Source of the DNA: a virus | Reading direction: 5' to 3' (one strand) | Virus record (IMG/VR): IMGVR_UViG_3300009187_000082 | Span: 1-22,289 of that record | Length of the DNA: 22,289 bases | In this document: positions 4,791-19,734 of the stretch, piece after piece | How the letters are laid out: the number at the start of each line of letters is the position of its first letter | Position numbering within the stretch: position 1 is the first letter of the stretch | Translations under genes and position numbers: made by a program | Notes under the pieces: generated by a model | The model's database searches: none | What the model saw: the letters and a program-made list of their open reading frames with translations, nothing else | What the model was told of the DNA's origin: nothing

Positions 4791-7700
4791 TACACTACCT
4801 CACTTAAGAATAAGGTCATCTCTGGACCATTAGAACTTCTTGAATAGTCTATGTTATAAACCACAAACCTACTTAGTGGATCGGACACTTGACTCACTGT
4901 ATTTTCTTCATAATCCAAAGTCACTATATCTCCTAGTTGAATTGTTGGAATTGAAAAAATTTTAACACCAACAGATTTTCTTGGTTTTGATATTTTATCA
5001 ATAACCCATTTCATTAAACTTTTTGCATCATCATGCGACTGAATGTATTGTGCGTTTAATGTAAAATCTTTTTTGCCGTATGTCATTCTGCTTAACTTTA
5101 TATCTTCATAATCCTTTTTAAATTTATATGGATTTGATACTGTTTTATCTGTTAAAAATTGTGGATTAGAAAGATCACTATTTTTATTAAAATAATCATC
5201 TACTGTCATTTTGTTATCTGATTGCTGTGTAAATGTAATGCCCTGTATTCTTAAATAGTTTCCAGTTGTTTCATCCAAACTAATGGCAGTGTCTGTTGAG
5301 TTTAAGACTAAAAACTCTGCCCCATATGAACCAGCCCTAAATCCAGAAACAACATAACCTTTTATTTTATTAAATGTTGGAGATATTTTAGCGGTAAGTG
5401 CTGGAAAGGCTTTATCATATTTAAACTTAAATGTTGCAGCCTCTCGCATAATGCTGCCAAATTCTTCAAAATAAATATTGTACTTAGGCATTTCAGAAGA
5501 ACCTATGCCAGCAAGATAGGTATTTTGAATTAATCCACTAAGGGCATACTTTCTAAATGATTCATTTGCATCAATATCAGAATCTCCAAACACAGAATTT
5601 ACAGGTGCACCTAAAGAGAATGAAGTATTTTGAGAATAATTATTGCAAAGCGCATAAACATTTTCAAACATTATTTTTGAAGATCCTCTTGTAAATAATG
5701 CTATGTTTGAATATGCTGGAAGTGGGTCTAAGTCATCTACTGTTTTTATTAATCTGCCGTTTAAATATAAGAAAAAGCGTCTTAAATTTCCAATGTCTTC
5801 GTACTCTACAGCAAGATCGTAAACTGTAGTATTTTCCTCAGCAACCATCCTTGCTTGGCCAGTAAATCTTCCTGCGTCTACAGTAATCTCACCTAAGCCT
5901 TCCCAAAGTTTAACTGGTATAGCCTTTCCATTTTCAGATTTAACTTTATAAAAAAGAACGTTAGAGACTCCCTGTCTTTCTTCTTCTGACAGTTGTCCAA
6001 GTCCCAGTGCTGCTATTTCGAAATAATACCCAACGTTTGTTGTTGGATTTAACATGAATGAAAGCCCTCCAGAACCACCAGATATATTTATATTTTTATC
6101 TGGGCTGCTACCATTAACAACATAGTACGTTGATGCTCCATTAGAGGTTTGGCCCCTATCAAGATTGTTTTCTATTTTACCAACAATTCTCATTCTTGTT
6201 CCAAAGTGTTTATATTTTTTTTCTAGATTTTTATGAACATAAGAAACAAAGTCTCTAGGTTTTTCTGCTGTTGTAAAGTTGGGACCTGTCAAAGAAAGAG
6301 CAGAAGACTGAAGTGTTCCAGACTGTACTTTTGTCAATGTATTGATTTCTCCTATAAAAGATGTTGACATAAAGTTTTTAATAATTCCACTTCTTGATGA
6401 AGTTTTAGCAAGTGCATCTGATGAAATTCCAGAGTTTGTTGTTTTTCCAGAAGATGAGTCAGTTGTTGTTGGCACAGTTAGGTCAGTTTCAAACAAATAT
6501 TTAGAGTCCATATAACATCCCTTAACATTGTCATCAGACTTCCAGTAATCGGATATTCCAGAACTGTGTGCTACAACCTCGGTACCAAACTGACCACGAC
6601 CATGCTTGCTTACATCTCCATTTTGTAAACTTGTGATCCCATCTTTTTCAAAATATTTTGGTTCAGAGTATATTCTTACTAGTCCAGTTGGATAAATTTT
6701 TCCATTAAATGGAAGTTTGGCAAAATAGTTTTGATAATCCTCGACAGAAGTTATCCACACATTTCCTATACCTCCCACATTATATTGCACTGCATCATAT
6801 TTTATAATTTCTCCTTGAGAATAAAAGTATCCATTATATCTTGTAATCCAATATACTGCTTCTCCAAGACTAAAAGTATTGTTTATTAATACATTGTTTT
6901 TAACTATAGGAAGTTCTGAAGATAAATCTGAGTTTAATGGTATTGCACTAAGAACGTATGCCGATTGATTACCAACTTCATTATTTATAGATTTTGTATT
7001 TTCAGTTCCAGAAACTTCCCACAGTAATGCTGGCTTGTACGTATAATATCTTTCTCCATCCACAAGACTTGCTTGCTTTATGGATCCAACAGACCTTTGT
7101 ATATGCCTTACCTGATAATTAATTGTTCCGCCATTGTATACAGATTGGTCTTGAGATGAAACGGTGATTATGTTTGATAATTTTGTAGTGGTTTTTTGAT
7201 TTTGAACTCTTCCTACTGTTTCAAAATCTTTTGTTCCTTTAAGTTCAAATGTGGCGGGTCTTTCTTCTTTTGTTGGAAGTATGTAGTTTTTGCTCATCAT
7301 TACAAAATTATTGTATTCATCAAAGAACATTGCAGTCTGTGTTGATATGGCAAGGCCTTGAAGAATTTCAGCAACATTGCTACCTGGAGAAACAAAAAAA
7401 TATGGGATAATCATTTCTTTTTCTCCAGCAACTCTTTTAAATGTATAGTTTGCAAACCCAATATAGTCAAGCAAAAGTGAGACTGCCGAACTTACTGAAA
7501 CCTCTGTCATCAATATTTCTGGAGCCTCCATAGACTCTAGATACCAAAACATATCTCTTAGGTTCATGGATATTCTTTTATTAATAATATCTGCTTTTGG
7601 GAAAGAGTCTGAATATAATGTTTTCATTGGAACGTAATAATCCCATCCATCAACATCAACTATTACTTCATAAAATTTTATTTGAACATGTCTTGTTATG

Positions 7701-9076: not shown

Positions 9077-9711
9077 TATACTTCTTCCAGACTTACCGAA
9101 ACATTCCAATAATCAAAATTTGGTCCTCGTTTTTCTACAGAAAATGAAAAATCTGATATAAACATTTCTATAACCTGATTGTATTGTCTTAGGTGGCCAT
9201 ATGGACCTTCTGTTCCCCTAAAAATTCCTTTTCTGTCATATGCAAGAAATACCCAGAATGATCCCTTATGGTCGTTATACCATTCTTGAATATCTGCTCC
9301 TCCTGCTCCTCCGTCAGTAGTATAAGATTTATTTGTAGATATTCCTGTTGCTTGGTCAAAATTGGGAATATTTTCATGAGACCTTGACGGAAGCATGTTC
9401 CAACTAGTGCTAATTTTAATTTTGTCTGCAATATGATAAGACCTCATACGACCATTGATCATTCTTTCTCTTTTTTCAATTCTTTCATCTGAAAAATTTA
9501 ATGGCTCTCTGTTATCATCAGACAAGATTAAGAACTGATCAATTAAAGATTCATCCTCTACTTGTCCTGGATCTGCGCCAATTTCTAAACCATATGGGAT
9601 ATAAAGTCCATCTATTAATGTACCTGAATTTTCAGACCAAAGCATTGCACTAGGTCTTTGATATTTTTTACGACTTTGCATATACGTAAATCTTGGATCA
9701 ATTTCTGGCAT
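9076..9711 (-). CDS. Distal-tail-like minor tail protein
   Basis: A 211-residue protein directly after the tape measure gene, the usual place of the distal tail (Dit-like) protein that links the tail tube to the tip. The N-terminus is polar (MPEIDPRFTYMQSRKKYQRP); the middle (KIKISTSWNMLPSR, WYNDHKGSFWVFLAYD) and the end (YNQVIEMFISDFSFSVEKRG, FDYWNVSVSLEEV) are strand-rich, as in tail ring proteins. The last motif resembles the many tail proteins in which a strand pair ends in a description of the sandwich closing edge. Start ATG at 9711, with AAGGGGG about ten bases upstream, overlaps the end of the tape measure gene by 14 bases. Function by position mainly; fold call is tentative. Confidence 0.7.
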   Translation of the reverse strand: MPEIDPRFTYMQSRKKYQRPSAMLWSENSGTLIDGLYIPYGLEIGADPGQVEDESLIDQFLILSDDNREPLNFSDERIEKRERMINGRMRSYHIADKIKISTSWNMLPSRSHENIPNFDQATGISTNKSYTTDGGAGGADIQEWYNDHKGSFWVFLAYDRKGIFRGTEGPYGHLRQYNQVIEMFISDFSFSVEKRGPNFDYWNVSVSLEEV

Positions 9712-12700
9712 TTGTATTTATCCCCCTTACGCTTCTGTCGTTTACTGTTTTTATTTGTGACATTACTGCTTGTGCAATTTCATTTGGATTAGCGCCTGTT
9801 TTTGCATTAACTGTTAATGTATATGTATTATTATACACTGCCCCGCCAATAGATTCACCGCTATTAATTTTTTTCATGTTGTCTACACCATAAGAATCTA
9901 CAGCATACTTACTCATTATAAATTCTCCTGGGGTTAACATTGCTGGAACTGTATCTGTTCCCTTTGCAAAACCACCAAATGAGAAGTACTTAGGAATAAG
10001 ACCACCCATTGACCAGTTTCCAAATGCATTTGCTGCTGCTGCATTTCCACCAAACTTTTTTAATACTGCAGCATCTTGGGCTTTTTTGGCAGATGCTGCT
10101 GCTGCGGTGGCGTTGGCTGCATCTCTTACGGCTTTTTCTTGTGCAAGCATTCCTGAAGTTGGGGCCATGGCTTTTTGTACAGCAAGATTATTTTGTAACT
10201 TGTATAAATCTGCTAAGTGCATTCCTGGAGTACTTCCAGCATTTTTTGTTACATCTCCAACATTCATTGCCTGATTAAATAGCATGAAATTCTTTGCTGC
10301 ATCGTCTGCAATCCTTTGTAGGTCATCAAAGTGCATCTGAACAACAGATGACTGATCTGTTGGTCTATTTGAACCTGTTTGGTAACCTGTAGGGTCTGTC
10401 TTGGGGTCTGTCTTGGGGTCTGTCTTGGGGTCTACCTTGGGGTCTACCTTTGGGTCTGGTTTAGGGTCTGGAGTTGGGTCTGGTTTAGGGTCTGGAGTTG
10501 GGTCTGGTTTAGGGTCTGGTTTAGGGTCTGGTTTAGGGTCTGGTTTAGGGTCTGGAGTTGGGTCTGGTTTAGGATTTGGTTGTGTAGTTGCAGGTGTGAC
10601 TGCTGCTGCTGGAGTCTGTGCGCCATAGGCATCAATAAGTCTTTTCTGAACATCTAATGCAAGTTTCATAGAATCAACAAATGCTGCGCTCTTAATTAAT
10701 GCAAGGTCTACTTTATTTTTAATTGCTTCCCAAGCATCTTTTGTTAATCCAAGAACTGTGAGTCCTTCTATATCTTTGTCTAATAGTATTTGTCTTAAGC
10801 GAATAAACTCTTGTGCTGGTTCTAGTTTATCTTCTTCAATTTTAAATATTTCATCTTGAAGATCTTTAATTTCTTTTTCAAGTTGTAGTCTAGTTTTCCC
10901 ACCCTGAGTTACTCTAGATAGTTCATATTCTCTAGATTTTTCTATTGCATCTTTTTGTTTTGTTACAGCGTCTGCTGCTTCTTGGGCTCTCATATCTTGT
11001 ACAGCCCTTGCTGCTGCTGCAATATCTCCAGAGGTTAGCGCTTCAGCAAGTGTTAGTTGACCCTTTTGCTGATTGGAAATAGAAGCATTTGCTTTCTCTA
11101 CTTCGTCTAAAGCCTTAATTCTTTCATCATACTTGTCATTAATTTTTTGTTCTTGATCTTCGATTCCCTTTAGTGCTGCCTCTTTATCATCTATTTTATA
11201 CTGAATTGCTGAAATTGCATTCTGTGCATCTTTAATTACTGTATCTTGTGCTTTTGTATCTATTTTAAATTTTATGTTTAGTTCTGTTTCTTGAACATCA
11301 AAAGCCTGCATTGCATTGCCAAATCCTTTATCAAACAGACCTTGCATGAATTCAACGGTAGATTTTAATTGATTTAGTCTTTCATTAAAGTCAGAAATTA
11401 ACGCATTTAATTCTCCTTGTGCAGCACCAATAATTACTGCTGGTGCATCAATTCTCATCAACCTATCTACTTTTGCTTGTGCTAAAGCAACTTGGTTTTC
11501 CATTGATTTTAAGTGTTCATCTGATGAAATTGCAAAAGCGTTTTCTGCGCCATACTTAGATCTTAGTCTTGCTTCTTGCATTGTATCTTTCTTAAATTCT
11601 GCAATGTCTGTTTTTACTCCACTTATTGCTGCTGATTTTTCTTGTGCTGCAGTCAAAGTTTTATATCTCTGAATTAATGTTTTTAATGTCTTGTCGTTAA
11701 CGCCATTGGCAATTGCTGATGCTATTGTCTTATCAGAAATTAACTGATATGCATCTGCTACTGGAACCCCAAGGTTTGCCAACTTATTAAATGCAGAAGA
11801 TTGATTTTCAATAGCCTTAAACTCTGCTTCCATGCTAGAATTCCAGTCACCCATAGTTATAGAGTTTAGTGCTTCTTGAATATTGGTAGCATCTCTCTTT
11901 AAAGCAATAATATTTCCCTTATTGTCAAACTTAAACAAAGAGTTCTTTTTCTCTTCATATACCTTTGGGTCCATTCCGACTATAAGAGAGATAAGATCTT
12001 CGCTTCCGCCCAAACCTCTTATATCGTTTTCTATACCGCTAAATACATCTATGGTCTTCTTACCACCAAAGAGACCTTCTAAGGCCTTACGAGAGGCACT
12101 CCAGCCTTCTGTGACCTTTATCTGGTTCTTGCGTACATCTCGTAGTTTCTTTACTAGGTCGTCTAGCGGTGAAGACTGAACTTTCGTCCCCGTGGTAGTT
12201 GGAGTAGTTCCTGTTGGAGCAACAACACCTACCTGTGTGTTATCTGTAACGGCTTTAAATCCTTGGGCTTCTTTATATTTTTGTATTTTATAAGAAAGAC
12301 TTCCAGTTACTCCTTGTCCACCTCTAGGTCCAGGCTCTTTAAGCCACGCTTGGTAATCTTCGTCTGCCTGAATTATTGGATCTGGAATATTTACAATTGA
12401 TGCAATGGTAGTTGTGTATACTAATTTTTGATCATCTGTCAATGTCTTAAAATATGCTTCATCGAATGCTGCGGTGCCTTTAAGTTGTGGCATTATATTA
12501 TAAACAGCCTCTATTGTTTTTGGCTTTTGTGTTTCGATTGCATCAAGAATTCTATTTAGTTCATCGTATGCTGTTTTATTTTTTGGGTCTATGTAAAATC
12601 CAACTAAGAAATCTGAAGGGATTACCGTATTGAGGTTGTTCAACTTAATCATATTCTTTGCAAAGTCAAGAGCATCTGAATCTTTTTCAAATGCTTCTAC

Positions 12701-15700
12701 CTTGGTTATAAAGTTTGTCTGAACTGTCTTGTTAACGGTGCCCTTTGCATCAAGAATATTCTGTGCTGCAACACCAATTGACTCAGCAGTTGCTCCACTA
12801 AACTTAGTAATAATTTCCATCATCTTTGGAGCAATGTCTTTATTGTCTGTTGCCATTTGCAAAAGAGTTCTAAATACGGCTGGAGGAATATCTCCACTTG
12901 CCATCTTTGCTTGAATTAAAAACTCTTGACCACTATCTATTGCTCCAGATTTTCTTAAATCTTTTGATTGTTGATTTACAACATCTACATAAGCCAACTG
13001 ATTAGGATCATTTTTGTATTTTGCAGTTGTGGCTTTTTTCATTCCAGACATCATTGCTTCTTGAAGTCCACCAGCAGAGTTATACTGTGAAACAACATCT
13101 CCCTGTAAAGTACTTTGAGCAGCAGTCAATCTGTCTCTTTCTTTTATGTACTTAATTTGCAGATCATTGGCCTCATTAATTTTACCCTGCAGTCTTAACT
13201 CTTCAATTTTTTTCTGATAATACATATCAAATGAATCTAGCATTTGCTTATTTTGTTCCATTGCAATTTTTGCGTCTACGGATGCTGCTGCACCAAGAAC
13301 GGCTGCTTCTTTTACATACTTTTGTGATGCAAAATATCCAAGTGCTGAACCTGCTATTGCTCCAATTCCTGCACCAATGGCTGCTCCAATAGGTCCTCCA
13401 ACCATTGTTCCAAACCCTGCTACTGCTGCTGCTCCTCCAAGTGCTGAAGCCCCGATTCCTGCAATTTGTGTTGTTTTTTGTCCAGCAATTTTAGTTATTT
13501 GGTTAGCATTATTAATGTTACCTATGCTACTCTTCATATTTTTTGCATTTTCATTAATCATGTTTATTCTAACATTTAATGGATCATTAATAAGGTTTTC
13601 TCCGTTTGGTCCCAGCAAACTTTCTAGTTGAGCAATAACCCTTATACCAATAGACATATCTCCTGCTTGTCTAGCAGCATTCATAGCCAAACTTTTTGCT
13701 TGTGACATATCAATAGCACCAGACATAATTGCTGAAGATAATTGACCACCTAAATCTTTTACTGCAACGCTTCCTTTACCTGCAGCATTTTGTTCTGAAA
13801 TTCTTGCTGTTAATGCTTTACCCTCTGCTGTTTGAGCAAATGCTTCTCCATAGGTAGTTTTACCAGTTGCTGATCCAAGCATTGCAAAAGAATTTTTTCT
13901 TCTTAGATCCATCTGTTCTGATGCCGTTGTTTTGCCACCAAACTTTGCTATGGCCTGAAGTGCAGAGGTAGATCCTTTAAACTTTTCACCTTCTTCTAAA
14001 ACCTGATCTGCTGCTTTATCAAATGCCATTCTTAAAGCAGCCATTGCTCCTACTGTTGCAACAAGTCCTACTGCAATGGCTGACATAGGACTTTTTAACA
14101 TTGGAAGAATCATAGATAATCCCATAAGTGGCATCATTAGTTTTTGTGAAAGTTCTCCAACTTTTCCTGGAACCATTGATCCAACCATTGCTGCTCCTGC
14201 TGCTACTCCAACACCGCCAGCCAATCCCATCTTTCCAGTCTTTCCTTGTGCTGCTCTTTGTGCTGCTTCTGCTTTTTTGTTTGCAGAATAAGTTTTAAGT
14301 CTGCCAGATAAAGTTTTCTTTTGTGCTTCGGCTGCTGCTCTTTCATCAATAATTGATTGTCTATATGCAACCCTTTGTGCTAACTTACTTCTTTTTTCTT
14401 GTGCTTCTAATTGACGGCGCAAAGATTTTTGTTCAGCATCAATTATTCCCTGGCCGTACAGCGCTGTTCTAGAGGCTGCTGCCTTTGCCTGTGTTTTTGC
14501 ATTGTCTGCTTGTCTCTTTTCCATTTGACGACGTAAAGATTTTGATTCAGCATCAATTGGGCCATTGCCATATAATGCAGTTCTAGAGGCTGCTGCTGCA
14601 GATTGAGATGATGTTGCTTCTGGAGCATATGCATGTCCAGGAAGTATAAGTCTTGTTTTTGGACCTTGAACAACCCTTGTTCCTTTTTTAGGCGTTGGAG
14701 TCATTCTTGTATCTTTTGAACTGCCAGAAGAAGAAACAACGTTTGAAGGTTTAGGAGTTGTATTTAATTTTTTTAATTTTCCAGTCTTTTCATCTTCAAG
14801 CATTTCAGTTGGCTTAACAACAACAGATGAATGCATTTTGTGAAATGCTTTCCAATCAACCTTTCTGCCTTCTTCAAGTCTTTTAATCATTCCATCGTAT
14901 ATTGGTTTTTCTACATCAGAAAGATTCATACTTGCTACTGTGGCTTTTAACTTTGGAAGAACTTTATCAATTTCTGCTTTCATTGCTCTGTCATATTGCT
15001 CTGCAGTCATATTCTTTGGAATATCCAATGTTGATTCAGCAAAGAACCTTTTAGCACCACCCTTTACCCCAAGTAAATTAATTTTTGCTTGCTCTTCCAT
15101 TGAAGGCATGCTTGTAGCATATTCTCTCTTTCCAGATGCACGATTAAAGACTCCTGCTGTTCCAACATCTGCAAGAGTGTTTGCTGAAAGATTTCCTCTT
15201 CCAAGATCTTTGTCACCACGAAGATTTGCTGCGACAAGTTGTCTAAAGTATTGATCTTGTGAAAACTTTCCTGTCATTTTTGCTGGATCAAACCTCGTAT
15301 CATATGCAGACTCTAAAACAATTATCTTTCTTTTACCCTTTGGATCTTTAGGGTCAATCATTGTACTAATCTTTTGATCTGGAGAATCTAATCCGTGAAC
15401 TTCTCTAGCAATCCTTGTTGCTCTTTGTTCTGCAAGAGCAGCCTTTTCGTCCATCATTGGCTTTACAAATACTCTACTGCCATCTGGCTTTTCATATAAT
15501 CCACCAATTCCCTTAACTGGAAAACTAAACCCAGAAGTTGGAGATATCTGGGTGCCAAAGTTTGTAGGCTTTAATCTTCCAGAGGCTGTTTTCTTTGCTT
15601 CTTTTGCAATTTCTTTTAACGTTCTTGTGTCTGCATCATCTACAACTTTTGCAGACTGACTTATTGCTGGGCGTGTTCCTGCTCCAAGTCTATTCATGTT

Positions 15701-18586
15701 TACAACTGATCCATCATTTAACGTAACCGTTGAAGACTTAGTTACAATTTTTCCTTGTCTTCCATTACTTGTTCCTGTGGCAGGACCTTCTATAATACTG
15801 AAGCCCTTAATAAATCCCTTGTCTACAGCATCTTGTAGTATTTTCCTACTTTCTGCTGGAGTATTTCCTAATCCTTTTCCAAGATTAAAACTTGTAGATG
15901 TGTTGTATAATTTTTGCGCTTCTTGATATCCCTTAGTTTCTGCAACTGCTGGATGCTCTAAAGGAATTCTCTTTGTAAATATGTCACGAACATAGTTATC
16001 ATTTACTCCTTTTATTTTACCATCTGCTAAATCTTTTTTAATTGTTTCAATTATTGCACGGTCCATAGCCTGTGCATCTACAGCAGAAAGTCTAGAAGCA
16101 GCCCATTTTCCTGGACCCATTCTTTCCCATTCAGCAATAAATGATGCTGGGTTAACTCCAACAGAACCAGTCATTGCCTTGTTCATTTCTTGTGGGAAAT
16201 TAAACATTAACTTGTGAAGTGTTGAAACTGTTTCTGGTAATCCTTGTGATCTTAAAATTGAAGCCATTGCTTTTAATTTGTTTCTTTGATCTTCCGTCAT
16301 AAATGGATTATCTTTTATAACATCAGAAATTAATTTTTGATCACTTTTTCCACCAACGTGAGTTTTGTTCATTGGAACAGTTGTTGTTGATGATGCCTTG
16401 TCTGCTTGAGCCAAACTTACAGTTCCAGTTTCGTATCCCTTTAGTTTGCCCTGAATAATTGCTTTAATAATTGGTCGGTTTTGTGGATCTTGTGCTTCTT
16501 TTGCAGGAATAATTGCTTCTCCAGGAGAACCAAGAATTGGAATAATATCTCCAGCCCCTGCTGGACCTGGTAATCCAGTTGTCCCTGTTGCATATTTCTT
16601 TAAGCCTTTAACGCCTGGAGCACCACGCATTGGACCAGAAAATCCTGCTTGTGCTGCGATTGCTCTTCTGTATGCATTTGCCAAAATGTTAACTGCTGTT
16701 GCTTCAGATGTAAAAGTTTGCTTTAGTCTTTGATGAACCTGATCAAGTGACGCTGCAACTGCTGCTGCCTCAAGTTGTTCTTTAGTTAAATAGTTTGTCT
16801 GTTCTCCCAATATTTGACTTGATTGACCAGTTCTGTTATAGATAGATTTTAATCCTGCAAACATTTTAATTATATTAGCAACAGCATTTGCAATCAAACC
16901 AAATCCCATTAAGAGAACTGGGCCAACGCCAGCAAGTGCCACTGTTAGAATGGTTAAGAACTTTTTGCTACCTTCTCCCAGGTTATTAAACTTATCAAGA
17001 ATTTTTCCAACAAACTCAACAATTGGTGTTAGTGCTTTTAAGAATTGTTCTCCTACTGGAGCAATAGCCAATTTTAAATCTTCCATTGATTTTTTAAACT
17101 TGTAGGTTGTTGTGTTTTGTATCTTATCTAATTCTCGTTGTGATAAAATTGCAAGTTCTTCTGTAGTTGCTTTTGTTAGACCTAACACTCTTTGAGCCTG
17201 TGTACCCTGGGCTGTTACGTTCTGGAATAGCGTAGATAGTCTTGAGAACTGGAACTTGCCAAACAGTTGTTCAATAGCACGAGCACGGTTAAGAGGATCA
17301 AGTGTATCAAGTGCCTGAGCAAAGCCAACTACTGTTGCTTTGATATCACCTTTATTTGCTTCAACAATTCCTTTTATGTTGACTCCAAGGTCTCCAAGGA
17401 ATGCGCTTGCTTTTGCAGATGGATTAATCAAAGATGCAAGACCAGATTTGAGTGCGTTAGCACCTTCTGATGCGTTAATACCACCTTCCTTCATTGCTGT
17501 AAGGAAGAATGCAAGATCTTCTACATCTCCACCAAGTTGCTGAACAACTGGGCCAGCCTTTGGAATTGCTACTGTTAAATCTTCAATAGAAACAACAGTC
17601 TGGTTTTCAACTGCGTTAAGGAAGTCAATCTTTTTAGCAAGATCTGATGCTGCCACTCCAAATGCATTGGTTACTGAAATTGTTGTCTCTAATGCCTGTG
17701 TTTGTTCTACTCCACCAAGTACCGCAAGCCTTGTTGCCTGCACAACTTGGGCTGTCAACTCCGCACCCATCTTACCCATTGCTGCTGCATCTGCTGCCAT
17801 CTTCATTGTGTCTTCTACTGCAACACCATACTTGGTATACTCTTTTGCAAGAATCTGAATCTGCTTAACCATTGCATCGGTTTCTTCTTGTGTTGTAAAC
17901 ATCTCTCCGTATACACGTTTGAATCTAATTGCCTGCTCTTCAAGTTTCATGAATGTTTTTGAAGCAGTAACACCGAGCATTGCAAGTGGAACTGTAAATC
18001 CTACCATCAACTGACGGCCAGCCCACTGAGTATTCTTACCAAAATTTAAAAGGTTGGTTGATCCTTGCTTTAGTAATTGATTAAGCAGTTGCTGTCTTTG
18101 TGCTGCTATGGCTGTCTGCGTACCCAGGTTTTTCATATCAAGCGTTAAAGGTCTTACCGCAATTGCTTGTAAAGCACCATTTGCACCACGGCCCATTTTT
18201 ATATACTGAGTCTGTATGTCTTTTACACGCTCTCGTGCAACTTTATTTAATGTCTCAAACTCAGACTTAAATAACCTACCAAAAGTTTTTGTTGCAGCAC
18301 CAGTATATCTAAAATATTCTCTTGAGGTTAATTTATTTTTTTCTAAAGCATTAGTAAAAGACTCTGTACTTGATGTTACTGTTCGCATCGATGCTTGGAA
18401 TTGTCCAGCAGCATTGATGCTGTTCATTAAATTTTGTGCTTGATTTGCTGCTACTGCTGCTGCTGCAGTACCAGACTTTGACATCTGTGTATGGAAGGCT
18501 GATACTTGACGTTGGAGAAGTTTTAAACTTGCTAAAGCATCAGACGTATCAATATTTACATGAATATTGGATTCTACATCAGCCAT
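9698..18586 (-). CDS. Tail tape measure protein (2962 residues) with inserted domains
   Basis: This protein sets tail length and is expelled during DNA injection. Residues 185-480 match the TP901-type core: QLMVGFTVPLAMLGVTASKT, then EYTKYGVAVEDTMKMAADAA and GINASEGANALKSGLASL. Hydrophobic segments lie at about 542-578, 1449-1522 and 1702-1752, the last a glycine/alanine zipper (GAAIGAGIGAIAGSALG). An SPGE motif is at 687-690, an unassigned region at 739-1000, a kinase-like domain at about 1005-1255, 38-residue repeats at 1331-1392, a coiled coil at about 2433-2596 including LAEALTSGDIAAAARA, a DPKP repeat at 2668-2732, and the C-terminal TPGE motif at 2885-2888. The ATG at 18586 is chosen because AGAGG lies nine bases upstream; the ATG at 18590 leads to a stop after three codons. 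At roughly 1.5 angstroms per residue the tail could approach 400 nm if fully extended. Confidence 0.95.
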   Translation of the reverse strand: MADVESNIHVNIDTSDALASLKLLQRQVSAFHTQMSKSGTAAAAVAANQAQNLMNSINAAGQFQASMRTVTSSTESFTNALEKNKLTSREYFRYTGAATKTFGRLFKSEFETLNKVARERVKDIQTQYIKMGRGANGALQAIAVRPLTLDMKNLGTQTAIAAQRQQLLNQLLKQGSTNLLNFGKNTQWAGRQLMVGFTVPLAMLGVTASKTFMKLEEQAIRFKRVYGEMFTTQEETDAMVKQIQILAKEYTKYGVAVEDTMKMAADAAAMGKMGAELTAQVVQATRLAVLGGVEQTQALETTISVTNAFGVAASDLAKKIDFLNAVENQTVVSIEDLTVAIPKAGPVVQQLGGDVEDLAFFLTAMKEGGINASEGANALKSGLASLINPSAKASAFLGDLGVNIKGIVEANKGDIKATVVGFAQALDTLDPLNRARAIEQLFGKFQFSRLSTLFQNVTAQGTQAQRVLGLTKATTEELAILSQRELDKIQNTTTYKFKKSMEDLKLAIAPVGEQFLKALTPIVEFVGKILDKFNNLGEGSKKFLTILTVALAGVGPVLLMGFGLIANAVANIIKMFAGLKSIYNRTGQSSQILGEQTNYLTKEQLEAAAVAASLDQVHQRLKQTFTSEATAVNILANAYRRAIAAQAGFSGPMRGAPGVKGLKKYATGTTGLPGPAGAGDIIPILGSPGEAIIPAKEAQDPQNRPIIKAIIQGKLKGYETGTVSLAQADKASSTTTVPMNKTHVGGKSDQKLISDVIKDNPFMTEDQRNKLKAMASILRSQGLPETVSTLHKLMFNFPQEMNKAMTGSVGVNPASFIAEWERMGPGKWAASRLSAVDAQAMDRAIIETIKKDLADGKIKGVNDNYVRDIFTKRIPLEHPAVAETKGYQEAQKLYNTSTSFNLGKGLGNTPAESRKILQDAVDKGFIKGFSIIEGPATGTSNGRQGKIVTKSSTVTLNDGSVVNMNRLGAGTRPAISQSAKVVDDADTRTLKEIAKEAKKTASGRLKPTNFGTQISPTSGFSFPVKGIGGLYEKPDGSRVFVKPMMDEKAALAEQRATRIAREVHGLDSPDQKISTMIDPKDPKGKRKIIVLESAYDTRFDPAKMTGKFSQDQYFRQLVAANLRGDKDLGRGNLSANTLADVGTAGVFNRASGKREYATSMPSMEEQAKINLLGVKGGAKRFFAESTLDIPKNMTAEQYDRAMKAEIDKVLPKLKATVASMNLSDVEKPIYDGMIKRLEEGRKVDWKAFHKMHSSVVVKPTEMLEDEKTGKLKKLNTTPKPSNVVSSSGSSKDTRMTPTPKKGTRVVQGPKTRLILPGHAYAPEATSSQSAAAASRTALYGNGPIDAESKSLRRQMEKRQADNAKTQAKAAASRTALYGQGIIDAEQKSLRRQLEAQEKRSKLAQRVAYRQSIIDERAAAEAQKKTLSGRLKTYSANKKAEAAQRAAQGKTGKMGLAGGVGVAAGAAMVGSMVPGKVGELSQKLMMPLMGLSMILPMLKSPMSAIAVGLVATVGAMAALRMAFDKAADQVLEEGEKFKGSTSALQAIAKFGGKTTASEQMDLRRKNSFAMLGSATGKTTYGEAFAQTAEGKALTARISEQNAAGKGSVAVKDLGGQLSSAIMSGAIDMSQAKSLAMNAARQAGDMSIGIRVIAQLESLLGPNGENLINDPLNVRINMINENAKNMKSSIGNINNANQITKIAGQKTTQIAGIGASALGGAAAVAGFGTMVGGPIGAAIGAGIGAIAGSALGYFASQKYVKEAAVLGAAASVDAKIAMEQNKQMLDSFDMYYQKKIEELRLQGKINEANDLQIKYIKERDRLTAAQSTLQGDVVSQYNSAGGLQEAMMSGMKKATTAKYKNDPNQLAYVDVVNQQSKDLRKSGAIDSGQEFLIQAKMASGDIPPAVFRTLLQMATDNKDIAPKMMEIITKFSGATAESIGVAAQNILDAKGTVNKTVQTNFITKVEAFEKDSDALDFAKNMIKLNNLNTVIPSDFLVGFYIDPKNKTAYDELNRILDAIETQKPKTIEAVYNIMPQLKGTAAFDEAYFKTLTDDQKLVYTTTIASIVNIPDPIIQADEDYQAWLKEPGPRGGQGVTGSLSYKIQKYKEAQGFKAVTDNTQVGVVAPTGTTPTTTGTKVQSSPLDDLVKKLRDVRKNQIKVTEGWSASRKALEGLFGGKKTIDVFSGIENDIRGLGGSEDLISLIVGMDPKVYEEKKNSLFKFDNKGNIIALKRDATNIQEALNSITMGDWNSSMEAEFKAIENQSSAFNKLANLGVPVADAYQLISDKTIASAIANGVNDKTLKTLIQRYKTLTAAQEKSAAISGVKTDIAEFKKDTMQEARLRSKYGAENAFAISSDEHLKSMENQVALAQAKVDRLMRIDAPAVIIGAAQGELNALISDFNERLNQLKSTVEFMQGLFDKGFGNAMQAFDVQETELNIKFKIDTKAQDTVIKDAQNAISAIQYKIDDKEAALKGIEDQEQKINDKYDERIKALDEVEKANASISNQQKGQLTLAEALTSGDIAAAARAVQDMRAQEAADAVTKQKDAIEKSREYELSRVTQGGKTRLQLEKEIKDLQDEIFKIEEDKLEPAQEFIRLRQILLDKDIEGLTVLGLTKDAWEAIKNKVDLALIKSAAFVDSMKLALDVQKRLIDAYGAQTPAAAVTPATTQPNPKPDPTPDPKPDPKPDPKPDPKPDPTPDPKPDPTPDPKPDPKVDPKVDPKTDPKTDPKTDPTGYQTGSNRPTDQSSVVQMHFDDLQRIADDAAKNFMLFNQAMNVGDVTKNAGSTPGMHLADLYKLQNNLAVQKAMAPTSGMLAQEKAVRDAANATAAAASAKKAQDAAVLKKFGGNAAAANAFGNWSMGGLIPKYFSFGGFAKGTDTVPAMLTPGEFIMSKYAVDSYGVDNMKKINSGESIGGAVYNNTYTLTVNAKTGANPNEIAQAVMSQIKTVNDRSVRGINTNARN
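10391..10582 (-). repeat. 12-base tandem repeat coding for a DPKP hinge in the tape measure protein
   Basis: About sixteen copies of a 12-base unit (minus strand GACCCTAAACCA and close variants) encode Asp-Pro-Lys/Thr/Val-Pro repeats ending in DPKTDP units. Variants fall in blocks: KP, TP, then KV and KT at the end, which suggests stepwise duplication. The unit is a multiple of three, so copy number can change without breaking the frame. The product is a stiff, extended linker between the coiled coil and the C-terminal domain. Confidence 0.9.
14413..14596 (-). repeat. 70-base direct repeat with a 114-base period in the tape measure gene
   Basis: Two similar 70-base copies (14527-14596 and 14413-14482) encode AAASRTALYGxGxIDAExKSLRRQ at residues 1331-1354 and 1369-1392. 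A third, decayed copy may follow (AQRVAYRQSIIDERAAAEAQKK). The segments are basic, helix-forming and lie just before a hydrophobic stretch. Confidence 0.8.
14820..15574 (-). other. Kinase-like domain inside the tape measure protein
   Basis: Residues about 1005-1255 follow the order of motifs in protein-kinase-like and PI3/4-kinase- or HipA-like folds. A glycine-rich turn (KGIGGLYEKPDGS, from 1025) is followed by VFVK with K1042 in the place of the ATP-binding lysine, then E1053 in a helix (AALAEQRATRIARE) as the partner acid. A hinge-like strand IIVLESAY is at 1088-1095. The catalytic-loop-like GDKDLGRGN has D1125, D1127 and N1132, and ADVGTAGVF places D1140 where a metal-binding DFG-type acid is expected. 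The order and spacing are persuasive, but this is a by-eye assignment; activity is not shown. Confidence 0.55.
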
Positions 18587-18604: not shown

Positions 18605-18928
18605 TTAATTATTTACAAGATTGCCTAGAAGTGAAGCGTCGGAAAGTTTGATTCCTGATGCTTCTTCAACAATTTTGTATACAGTTGGAAGATCTAGGTT
18701 TTCTTCTAGGGCTTCCTTGTCTTCTGCCAATTCTGGCTTGTATTGCTTCATTGCGATTTGGACACAGTCCATTAGCAAGTCCATAGATTTTTCGTTATCT
18801 TCTGCGACCTTTGCAATATCTTCAAACTTCTTCATAAACGGACGAAGTAGAGAAATCTTAAGTGGTCTGACTTTTACCTTGGTGCCATCAATCAGTGTTA
18901 CTGTCTTTTCTTCAGTGGCGATTGCCAT
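18605..18928 (-). CDS. Short tail assembly chaperone (G-only paralogue)
   Basis: A 107-residue protein in the place of the tail assembly chaperone, directly before the tape measure gene. It is clearly related to the first 93 residues of the next gene upstream: both have PLKI-x-x-LR-x-F-x-x-x-FE-x-I, a central helix (MDLLMDCVQIAMKQY against AVLAKCALVAMQQY) and a closing LDLPT-x-Y-x-I-x-x-x-A-x-GIK. It lacks the T-like part. Chaperones of this kind coat the tape measure protein while the tube grows and do not end up in the virion. The ATG at 18928 has a very strong ribosome binding site, AAGGAGG five bases upstream, and an extended -10 promoter lies at 18955-18963, suggesting high output. Confidence 0.85.
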   Translation of the reverse strand: MAIATEEKTVTLIDGTKVKVRPLKISLLRPFMKKFEDIAKVAEDNEKSMDLLMDCVQIAMKQYKPELAEDKEALEENLDLPTVYKIVEEASGIKLSDASLLGNLVNN

Positions 18929-18954
18929 TTATTCCTCCTTATAAGGTTTAGTAA

Positions 18955-18963
18955 AGTATACCA
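18955..18963 (-). promoter_or_regulatory. Extended -10 promoter before the short chaperone gene
   Basis: The minus strand reads TGG-TATACT, the same ten bases (TGGTATACTT) as at 19671-19680 and 1410-1419. It lies in the 56-base gap between the two chaperone genes. A start near 18948 gives a leader of about 20 bases holding AAGGAGG. A -35 match is not seen. Confidence 0.55.
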
Positions 18964-18984
18964 TAAATCAGGCTTATTTTTTTG

Positions 18985-19665
18985 TTATTCGTAAACCTCA
19001 TAATCAAGGCCCATACCAATACCAAAACCTACTCTTTCTGCATTCATTCCTTGTAAAGCCAAAATATCATTGCCATCTCCTGTTGAGCCTTTACTAAATA
19101 CTCTAGCCTTCATATCTTCCCATTCATTACCGCTACCCGAATTCTTATCTAGATCTACACCCTGCATAGCAGCAGCAAATTTTTTATCGCTATAGTCTAA
19201 CTCTCTTTTTATTTTTAGTGTCGCTGTTAATTCTTGCATAGACATTGATGATTCTAACTGGTCATAGTCTTTCCATATACCGATTAAAAAAACTTCTGAC
19301 TCTAGTTTTGCTAAATCTAAAGTATCCCACGAAGATCCGCTATCAACTGCCTGATCTTTAACAGTGTCTTCTGATTTTGCATTAATTTTAATTCCTGCTG
19401 CTACATCAATTATTTCATAGATTGTTGGTAAGTCTAGGCTATCTTCTAGGTCTTCTATTGTTTTTATTGATGGACAATACTGTTGCATTGCAACAAGTGC
19501 ACATTTAGCCAGAACTGCAATTGATTCGTCATCAGTTTTTGCTTCTTTTATTGTTTCAAAAGTTTCTAAAAATTCCCTTAAATATTTAATTTTTAATGGC
19601 GCAGCAATAACTACTCTGTCGTCTACTAATGATATTTTTTTAGTGTCGTATATTTTTGTTGCCAT
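18985..19665 (-). CDS. Long tail assembly chaperone, G-like and T-like parts fused in frame
   Basis: A 226-residue protein. Residues 10-93 are the G-like part shared with the short paralogue. Residues 112-226 match the T-like extension seen in GT proteins: LAKLESEVFLIGIWKDYDQL, then SMQELTATLKIKRELDYSDKKFAAAMQGVDLD. In most long-tailed phages G and GT are made from overlapping frames by ribosomal frameshifting; here one frame encodes both. The T part recruits the tail tube protein while G binds the tape measure protein. I chose the ATG at 19665; an in-frame TTG at 19716 would begin inside the terminator stem. No ribosome binding site precedes the ATG, but TGG-TATACT lies six bases upstream, so a leaderless transcript is likely. 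The C-terminus (GFGIGMGLDYEVYE) is glycine-rich. Confidence 0.85.
   Translation of the reverse strand: MATKIYDTKKISLVDDRVVIAAPLKIKYLREFLETFETIKEAKTDDESIAVLAKCALVAMQQYCPSIKTIEDLEDSLDLPTIYEIIDVAAGIKINAKSEDTVKDQAVDSGSSWDTLDLAKLESEVFLIGIWKDYDQLESSMSMQELTATLKIKRELDYSDKKFAAAMQGVDLDKNSGSGNEWEDMKARVFSKGSTGDGNDILALQGMNAERVGFGIGMGLDYEVYE
19285..19291 (-). other. In-frame slippery heptamer T TTT TTA
   Basis: Within codons 125-127 (GTT TTT TTA) the reading frame presents T TTT TTA, a classical -1 slippery site. A -1 shift here would add seven residues (NRYMERL) and stop at TGA, giving a G-only product of about 134 residues. I see no obvious stimulatory hairpin or upstream booster, and T-runs are common in AT-rich DNA, so use of the site is uncertain. 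Confidence 0.3.
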
Positions 19666-19671
19666 TATACA

Positions 19672-19680
19672 AGTATACCA
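19672..19680 (-). promoter_or_regulatory. Extended -10 promoter giving a leaderless transcript of the long chaperone
   Basis: The minus strand reads TGG-TATACT, then TGTATA, then the ATG at 19665. The six-base gap equals that at the lectin-like gene and would place the transcription start on the start codon. It lies directly downstream of the terminator hairpin, so the chaperone is likely transcribed anew after termination. No -35 box is visible; the expected position falls in the terminator stem. Confidence 0.6.
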
Positions 19681-19712
19681 AACAGAAAGACCCAACCCAC
19701 TAAAGGGTTGGG
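19680..19712 (-). terminator. Rho-independent-type terminator after the major tail protein gene
   Basis: A perfect 8-base-pair stem, CCCAACCC (19705-19712 read on the minus strand) and GGGTTGGG (19691-19698), with the 6-base loop TTTAGT, is followed on the minus strand by the T-rich TCTTTCTGTTT. It begins 22 bases after the tail protein stop codon. It should hold back readthrough from the abundant tail protein transcript. The T tract is interrupted, so termination is probably partial. Confidence 0.8.
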
Positions 19713-19734
19713 CCAACTGTATTATTAAGTTGTA

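Follow-up and report, generated by a model that had tools for sequence, protein, structure and literature searches.

Can the tape measure protein of a phage bring a signalling enzyme into the cell that the phage infects? The usual view is that tape measure proteins are rulers and pore formers or, at the most, hydrolases of the cell wall. They fill the tail tube, exit at infection and enter or cross the inner membrane. The question is raised by IMG/VR virus record IMGVR_UViG_3300009187_000082, from an uncultured virus, of which a stretch of 22,289 bases (here called the window) was analyzed. The window has a tail gene cluster on its minus strand, and its largest gene encodes a predicted tape measure protein (TMP). 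The original prediction, made from the letters of the DNA, was that this TMP has a kinase-like domain built into it, which either is delivered at infection or acts in tail assembly. Our analysis suggests that in many uncultured tailed phages a kinase is injected into the host together with the DNA.

Results

The domain region was modelled with AlphaFold2 from 39 aligned sequences (model residue i is TMP residue 978+i). The model is compact and confident (pLDDT 92.1, pTM 0.90), and its elements follow each other in the order strand, strand, strand, helix C, strand, strand, helix E and catalytic loop. In model numbering, the first three strands are residues 34-38, 51-54 and 60-65, the third ending just past K1042. 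The helix at 69-84 includes E1053, and strands 94-99 and 109-116 (hinge) are followed by a helix at 132-145, the catalytic loop at 147-154, the DxG motif and a helical C-lobe. When the model was compared with the PDB by Foldseek, the best 50 matches all had the protein kinase fold; they were mostly eukaryotic protein kinases, plus the pseudokinase Pan3. Shewanella HipA (4pu4) was matched with a probability of 0.85 and AAK1 with 0.80, whereas a contrast run with the neighbouring domain gave scattered unrelated matches with probabilities below 0.22. Modelling had been proposed as a check in the original prediction, and the confident model obtained has the topology of a kinase. This model, the kinase-only top PDB matches and the in-register profile match to the head kinases described below all support the kinase reading, and the predicted fold and active site can be considered well supported.

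The residues on which the prediction had been built are all present where it placed them: K1042, E1053, the hinge IIVLES, GDKDLGRGN with D1125, D1127 and N1132, and ADVG with D1140. The span it had given, 15574 to 14820, corresponds to TMP residues 1005-1256. Together these residues make up the set of the kinase superfamily, with the strand-3 lysine, the helix C glutamate, a catalytic aspartate followed five residues on by an asparagine, and the metal-binding DxG. A loose pattern of these motifs was found in 462 of 2000 shuffled copies of the window TMP (23%). On sequence grounds, motif order alone is weak evidence, but it goes far beyond chance once homologues are added. Among relatives taken at less than 90% mutual identity, K1042, E1053, D1125, D1127, N1132, D1140 and G1142 were unchanged in 60 out of 60; these include the three positions (K1042, N1132 and D1140) whose conservation had been put forward as a check. 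As identity of the whole domain to the window copy drops to about 38% in the same comparison, this suggests that an enzyme is under selection and not a pseudokinase. The glycine-rich turn that was proposed to begin at K1025 can be refined: in the model the hairpin loop spans about T1017 to G1028. A second conserved motif, S-G1019-x-S1021-F, lies in this first hairpin loop upstream of K1025, and G1029 begins strand 2. In two contigs the TMP frame shifts just before or within the kinase domain (locus L077 near 7725 and locus L120 near 8980), which may be either sequencing error or real inactivation, as the two are indistinguishable here.

Among viral protein models, Foldseek matched the model to four at probability 1.00 and E below 0.001; one of these is an ADP-ribosyltransferase from Mycobacterium phage Onyinye, another a portal-protein fusion. 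Next came gp67 of Gordonia phage GodonK, with a probability of 0.91. Both the Onyinye and the GodonK protein are large, and their genes lie in the head cluster. Several of these head relatives carry an ADP-ribosyltransferase domain, two that are annotated as minor capsid fusions start with a VG15 domain, and a kinase-bearing relative in Yersinia phage fHe-Yen8-01 is annotated as particle associated. Over 70 members, the head kinases match PF07804 HipA_C with a best E-value of 3.5e-5, and two relatives match the PI3/PI4 kinase model (best 2.4e-4). A profile of the first 12 head kinases reaches the solved kinase CtkA with E 1.7e-4 over nearly the whole of that profile; a broader profile does so more weakly (0.31). 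We then aligned the TMP domains with the 70 head kinases by hhalign, which gave a probability of 90.7 and E 1.3e-6 over 186 columns (score 49.3), with the lysine, the helix C glutamate, the D....N pair and the DxG of both groups in register. Among the controls, none of the 60 column shuffles scored above 20.5; the reversed profile scored 16.4, and two unrelated TMP regions scored 22.2 and 14.3. An earlier comparison with 12 head kinases had given probabilities of 25-54, which was suggestive; the match became firm only with 70. Profile comparison thus shows the putative TMP kinase to be homologous to the kinase domains of phage head effector proteins. The head-type family itself occurs in at least 468 places in viral contigs (loci L173, L174, L175-L184 and L267-L346, at about 5000-5700 in most of L267-L346). 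No Pfam or NCBIfam model covers it well, and in the four members tested the kinase domain matched no PHROG.

Relatives of the TMP domain were numerous in viral contigs. A scan with the window sequence yielded 11; with alignments as queries the number rose to at least 151 and later to at least 328. The genomes of 84,980 bacterial and archaeal species were scanned twice and gave none, and tblastn gave none in annotated phages (50,697 phage records) or plasmids. All 113 distinct relatives in the fetched loci sit in TMPs of uncultured phages: 108 are in frames that have the TMP N-terminal region, 4 are on contigs cut at that side and 1 lies behind a simple frameshift. Unlike the head-kinase family, then, none of the 113 is carried in a capsid-side protein. 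PF07804 HipA_C did not match the TMP domain or its relatives, and no HipB-like antitoxin gene was seen beside the TMP gene among the reading frames of the window, whose neighbours were not searched by profile. Direct searches of Pfam, PHROGs, NCBIfam and PDB sequences, made with the domain and with its alignments, produced nothing beyond chance matches, for example to N-acetylmannosamine-6-phosphate epimerase, RaiA and designed helical bundles.

The domain lies in a variable slot of the TMP. In kinase-less TMPs whose N-terminal regions are about 63-82% identical to that of the window TMP, sequence is conserved to about residue 720-850 and resumes at about 1310-1365, with different content in between. 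The slot is located between two hydrophobic segments (Table 1). Upstream of the kinase it holds a second module of 250 residues, for which AlphaFold2 gave a confident fold of its own (pLDDT 83.8) and for which neither PDB nor family searches gave a match. A motif of the PGE[A/F] type precedes the kinase in 85 of the 113 proteins; the distance is 48-105 residues where no module intervenes and 290-409 residues where one does. Among the 80 closest TMPs, 9 were cut short and left out; of the 71 that could be scored, the kinase was present in 41 and absent in 30, and its presence changes at least 5-6 times on the tree of TMP N-terminal regions. Because the kinase comes and goes on the same TMP backbone, it can be regarded as cargo that tail assembly does not need.

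Identities in the two parts of the protein are decoupled. Some relatives resemble the window copy at 0.81-0.90 in the N-terminal region and 0.46-0.68 in the kinase, others at 0.35-0.40 and 0.54-0.63. Locus L003 is 88-90% identical to L093, L098 and L095 in the N-terminal region and about 50% in the kinase, and 35-40% and about 62% identical, respectively, to L029, L030 and L036. Despite this, the main TMP clade was not rejected in the kinase tree by the AU test (p 0.79), and therefore we do not claim exchange of the kinase within that clade. Kinase-less TMPs fill the slot with several other modules (loci L118, L130, L132, L137, L140, L148, L150, L151, L153, L157 and L163), many of which have a conserved SHI/AHV/THV motif or an SPSK...VDDA segment. 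These modules are possibly further cargo.

The assignment of the carrier as a TMP rests on family matches and on its location in the tail cluster, by which it qualifies as a predicted phage tape measure protein. In a Pfam search, PF10145 PhageMin_Tail matched residues 247-443 (E 1.3e-23), and ten tape-measure PHROGs matched, among them phrog_10030 over residues 38-656 (E 3.8e-98). The same Pfam search gave no ADP-ribosyltransferase match in the window TMP. A repeat of Pro-Asp-Pro-Lys units farther along the protein is probably a flexible linker. Directly upstream of the TMP gene are two tail-chaperone-like genes; they are paralogues (43% identity over 89 residues), the larger with a C-terminal extension, and look like duplicated tail assembly chaperones. 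Distant relatives of the TMP N-terminal region are mostly in Streptomyces and Gordonia phages, which makes an actinobacterial host plausible.

Table 1. Positions of the predicted tape measure gene, its domains and active-site motifs, and adjoining genes in the window (TMP residue n lies at position 18586-3(n-1))
Feature	Position	Strand	Basis
Tape measure protein, 2962 aa, holds the kinase domain	9698..18586	-	PF10145 and phrog_10030
Atypical kinase domain (predicted), residues 1004-1257	14814..15577	-	AlphaFold2 model, Foldseek, profile match to head kinases
K1042, strand-3 lysine of VFVKP	15461..15463	-	Invariant, 60/60
E1053, helix C glutamate	15428..15430	-	Invariant, 60/60
Catalytic loop D1125-K-D1127-L-G-R-G-N1132	15191..15214	-	D1125, D1127 and N1132 invariant, 60/60; aligned with NWD....DN of head kinases
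D1140-V-G1142, DFG-like metal-binding motif	15161..15169	-	D1140 and G1142 invariant, 60/60
Variable slot between conserved flanks, about residues 721-1365	14492..16426	-	blastp against kinase-less TMPs aligns only the flanks; junction alignment
Second slot module upstream of the kinase, residues 731-978, conserved T-H-V-G start	15653..16396	-	Found in other kinase TMPs, partly in kinase-less ones
First membrane-like hydrophobic segment, residues 541-576	16859..16966	-	Hydropathy scan
Second membrane-like hydrophobic segment, residues 1492-1522	14021..14113	-	Hydropathy scan
Pro-Asp-Pro-Lys unit repeat, residues about 2667-2720	10427..10588	-	
Two tail-chaperone-like genes	18605..19716	-	

Discussion

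We consider it fairly probable that the domain is an atypical protein kinase of the HipA/CtkA-like branch that travels as exchangeable cargo and, once delivered at infection, phosphorylates a host target. The wider proposal, for which we see about as much against as in favour, is that a large group of uncultured aquatic phages use their TMPs as scaffolds for effector delivery, with a defined slot for cargo, and that this slot commonly holds an active HipA-related kinase, which is injected via the tail and phosphorylates a host protein as infection begins. The kinase would be packaged in the tail lumen as part of the TMP, would be ejected with it on infection and would fold or refold either in the cytoplasm or at the inner membrane. 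We place its action in or at the cytoplasm because ATP is available there. It would bind ATP through K1042 and E1053 and use D1127, N1132 and D1140 for phosphate transfer to a host protein, which may favour early takeover or blunt host defence. HipA-type kinases act on aminoacyl-tRNA synthetases, and a translation factor is therefore one natural candidate for the target. The effector role is supported by the head-side relatives, which combine with ADP-ribosyltransferases, a host-modifying enzyme class.

An active kinase might instead work late in the infected cell, on tail proteins or on the TMP itself, and so regulate how the tail is assembled or which conformation the TMP adopts. Like the other tail proteins, TMPs are synthesized late, so the enzyme would meet cytoplasmic ATP before packaging, and large TMPs need chaperones, two candidates for which adjoin the window TMP. 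We nevertheless regard this as unlikely, as the domain is missing from close relatives that share its flanks and are up to 82% identical in the N-terminal region, so that assembly does not require a kinase, and as the homologous domains are found in head effector proteins, several of them ADP-ribosyltransferase fusions, and not in assembly factors. Because the domain is dispensable among close TMPs and its head homologues adjoin ADP-ribosyltransferase domains, delivery as an effector appears to fit better than a role in tail assembly. Somewhat more doubtful still is that a delivered enzyme with this fold acts on a small molecule, a lipid or a nucleotide, or carries out AMPylation or another transfer from ATP, and not protein phosphorylation. 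The superfamily does include PI3/PI4 and small-molecule kinases, and two head relatives match the PI3/PI4 model, but the named proteins to which the head kinases are closest by profile, CtkA and HipA, both phosphorylate proteins.

That the fold is kept by a pseudokinase as a structural or binding module, for example to fill or stiffen part of the TMP, seems very improbable to us. TMPs tolerate many inserts, and the slot holds other modules in other phages, but residues such as those invariant here are usually lost in pseudokinases, whereas in the TMP domains they all persist although identity elsewhere in the domain drops to about 38-55%. Hardly credible is an accidental motif match in an ordinary tail-protein domain of some other fold. 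The frequency of the loose pattern in shuffled TMPs and the low PDB TM-scores would agree with it; the confident model of kinase topology, the kinase-only PDB list and a profile match in active-site register, far above the 60 shuffled controls and the reversed one, argue against it.

Several points count against the delivered-kinase proposal itself. The PDB matches had E-values of 0.004-0.04 and TM-scores of at most 0.36 among the matches listed; with such low TM-scores and no match at E 0.001, the fold assignment is remote. Direct searches with the domain gave no match in Pfam, PHROGs, NCBIfam kinase models or PDB sequences, and the link of the head kinases to HipA lies below the Pfam curated cut-offs where these are shown. 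Phosphotransfer by the domain is inferred from the predicted fold and residues. The kinase is internal to the TMP, between the two hydrophobic segments, and might end up on either side of the membrane. As there are only few TMP copies per virion, the delivered dose would also be small. In contrast to the fold and the active site, the activity, delivery and target that we propose are inferences.

Related phage kinases are known. The head-side proteins (Onyinye gp16, GodonK gp67, minor capsid-ADP-ribosyltransferase fusions of M. abscessus prophages and the fHe-Yen8-01 particle protein) share the same kinase core in register and likewise belong to large proteins of the virion or head cluster that have further effector modules, but their carriers are on the capsid side, several have an ADP-ribosyltransferase, and identity to the TMP domains is about 15%. 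In Gratiaviridae gut phages, a HipA-family kinase is encoded between the portal and major capsid genes (PMC8008677). This is also a HipA-type kinase in a structural-gene cluster, but it is not reported in a TMP and its proposed role is superinfection immunity (PMC8008677). Phage polyvalent proteins have a kinase domain within a large multidomain protein predicted to enter the host; these kinases differ in that the C-terminal subdomain is described as lost, they are mainly found in (pro)phages of Verrucomicrobia-Chlamydia and Bacteroidetes, and no TMP is mentioned (PMC5512222).

Enzymatic domains built into TMPs are known from TM4, phiIPLA35 and T5, where, according to the passage of PMC6116005 that cites them, the domains are cell-wall hydrolases that cut peptidoglycan during entry. 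A kinase needs ATP, which points to action inside the cell, unlike that of the peptidoglycan-cutting domains. TMP-related effectors with swappable domains, of the Sle1 type, are found in contractile injection systems (PMC13277306). They resemble the case described here in having a TMP-like scaffold, an exchangeable domain and delivery through a tail-like tube, and they are actinobacterial; they differ in that the particle is a domesticated tail-like one, the cargo is C-terminal and no kinase is reported (PMC13277306). We found no published kinase in a TMP in a literature search that was thin on subscription journals and preprints. A kinase in a TMP thus combines ideas that are already known, and the combination itself is new.

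The presence of an ATP-requiring kinase in an exchangeable TMP slot implies that signalling enzymes can be carried into the host by such proteins. This hints that siphophages may commonly deliver effectors through their tails, and it links such effectors to those of injection systems built on TMP-like scaffolds. The TMP kinase is also a concrete case that can be tested, as its residues are defined and the domain is small enough to be expressed alone.
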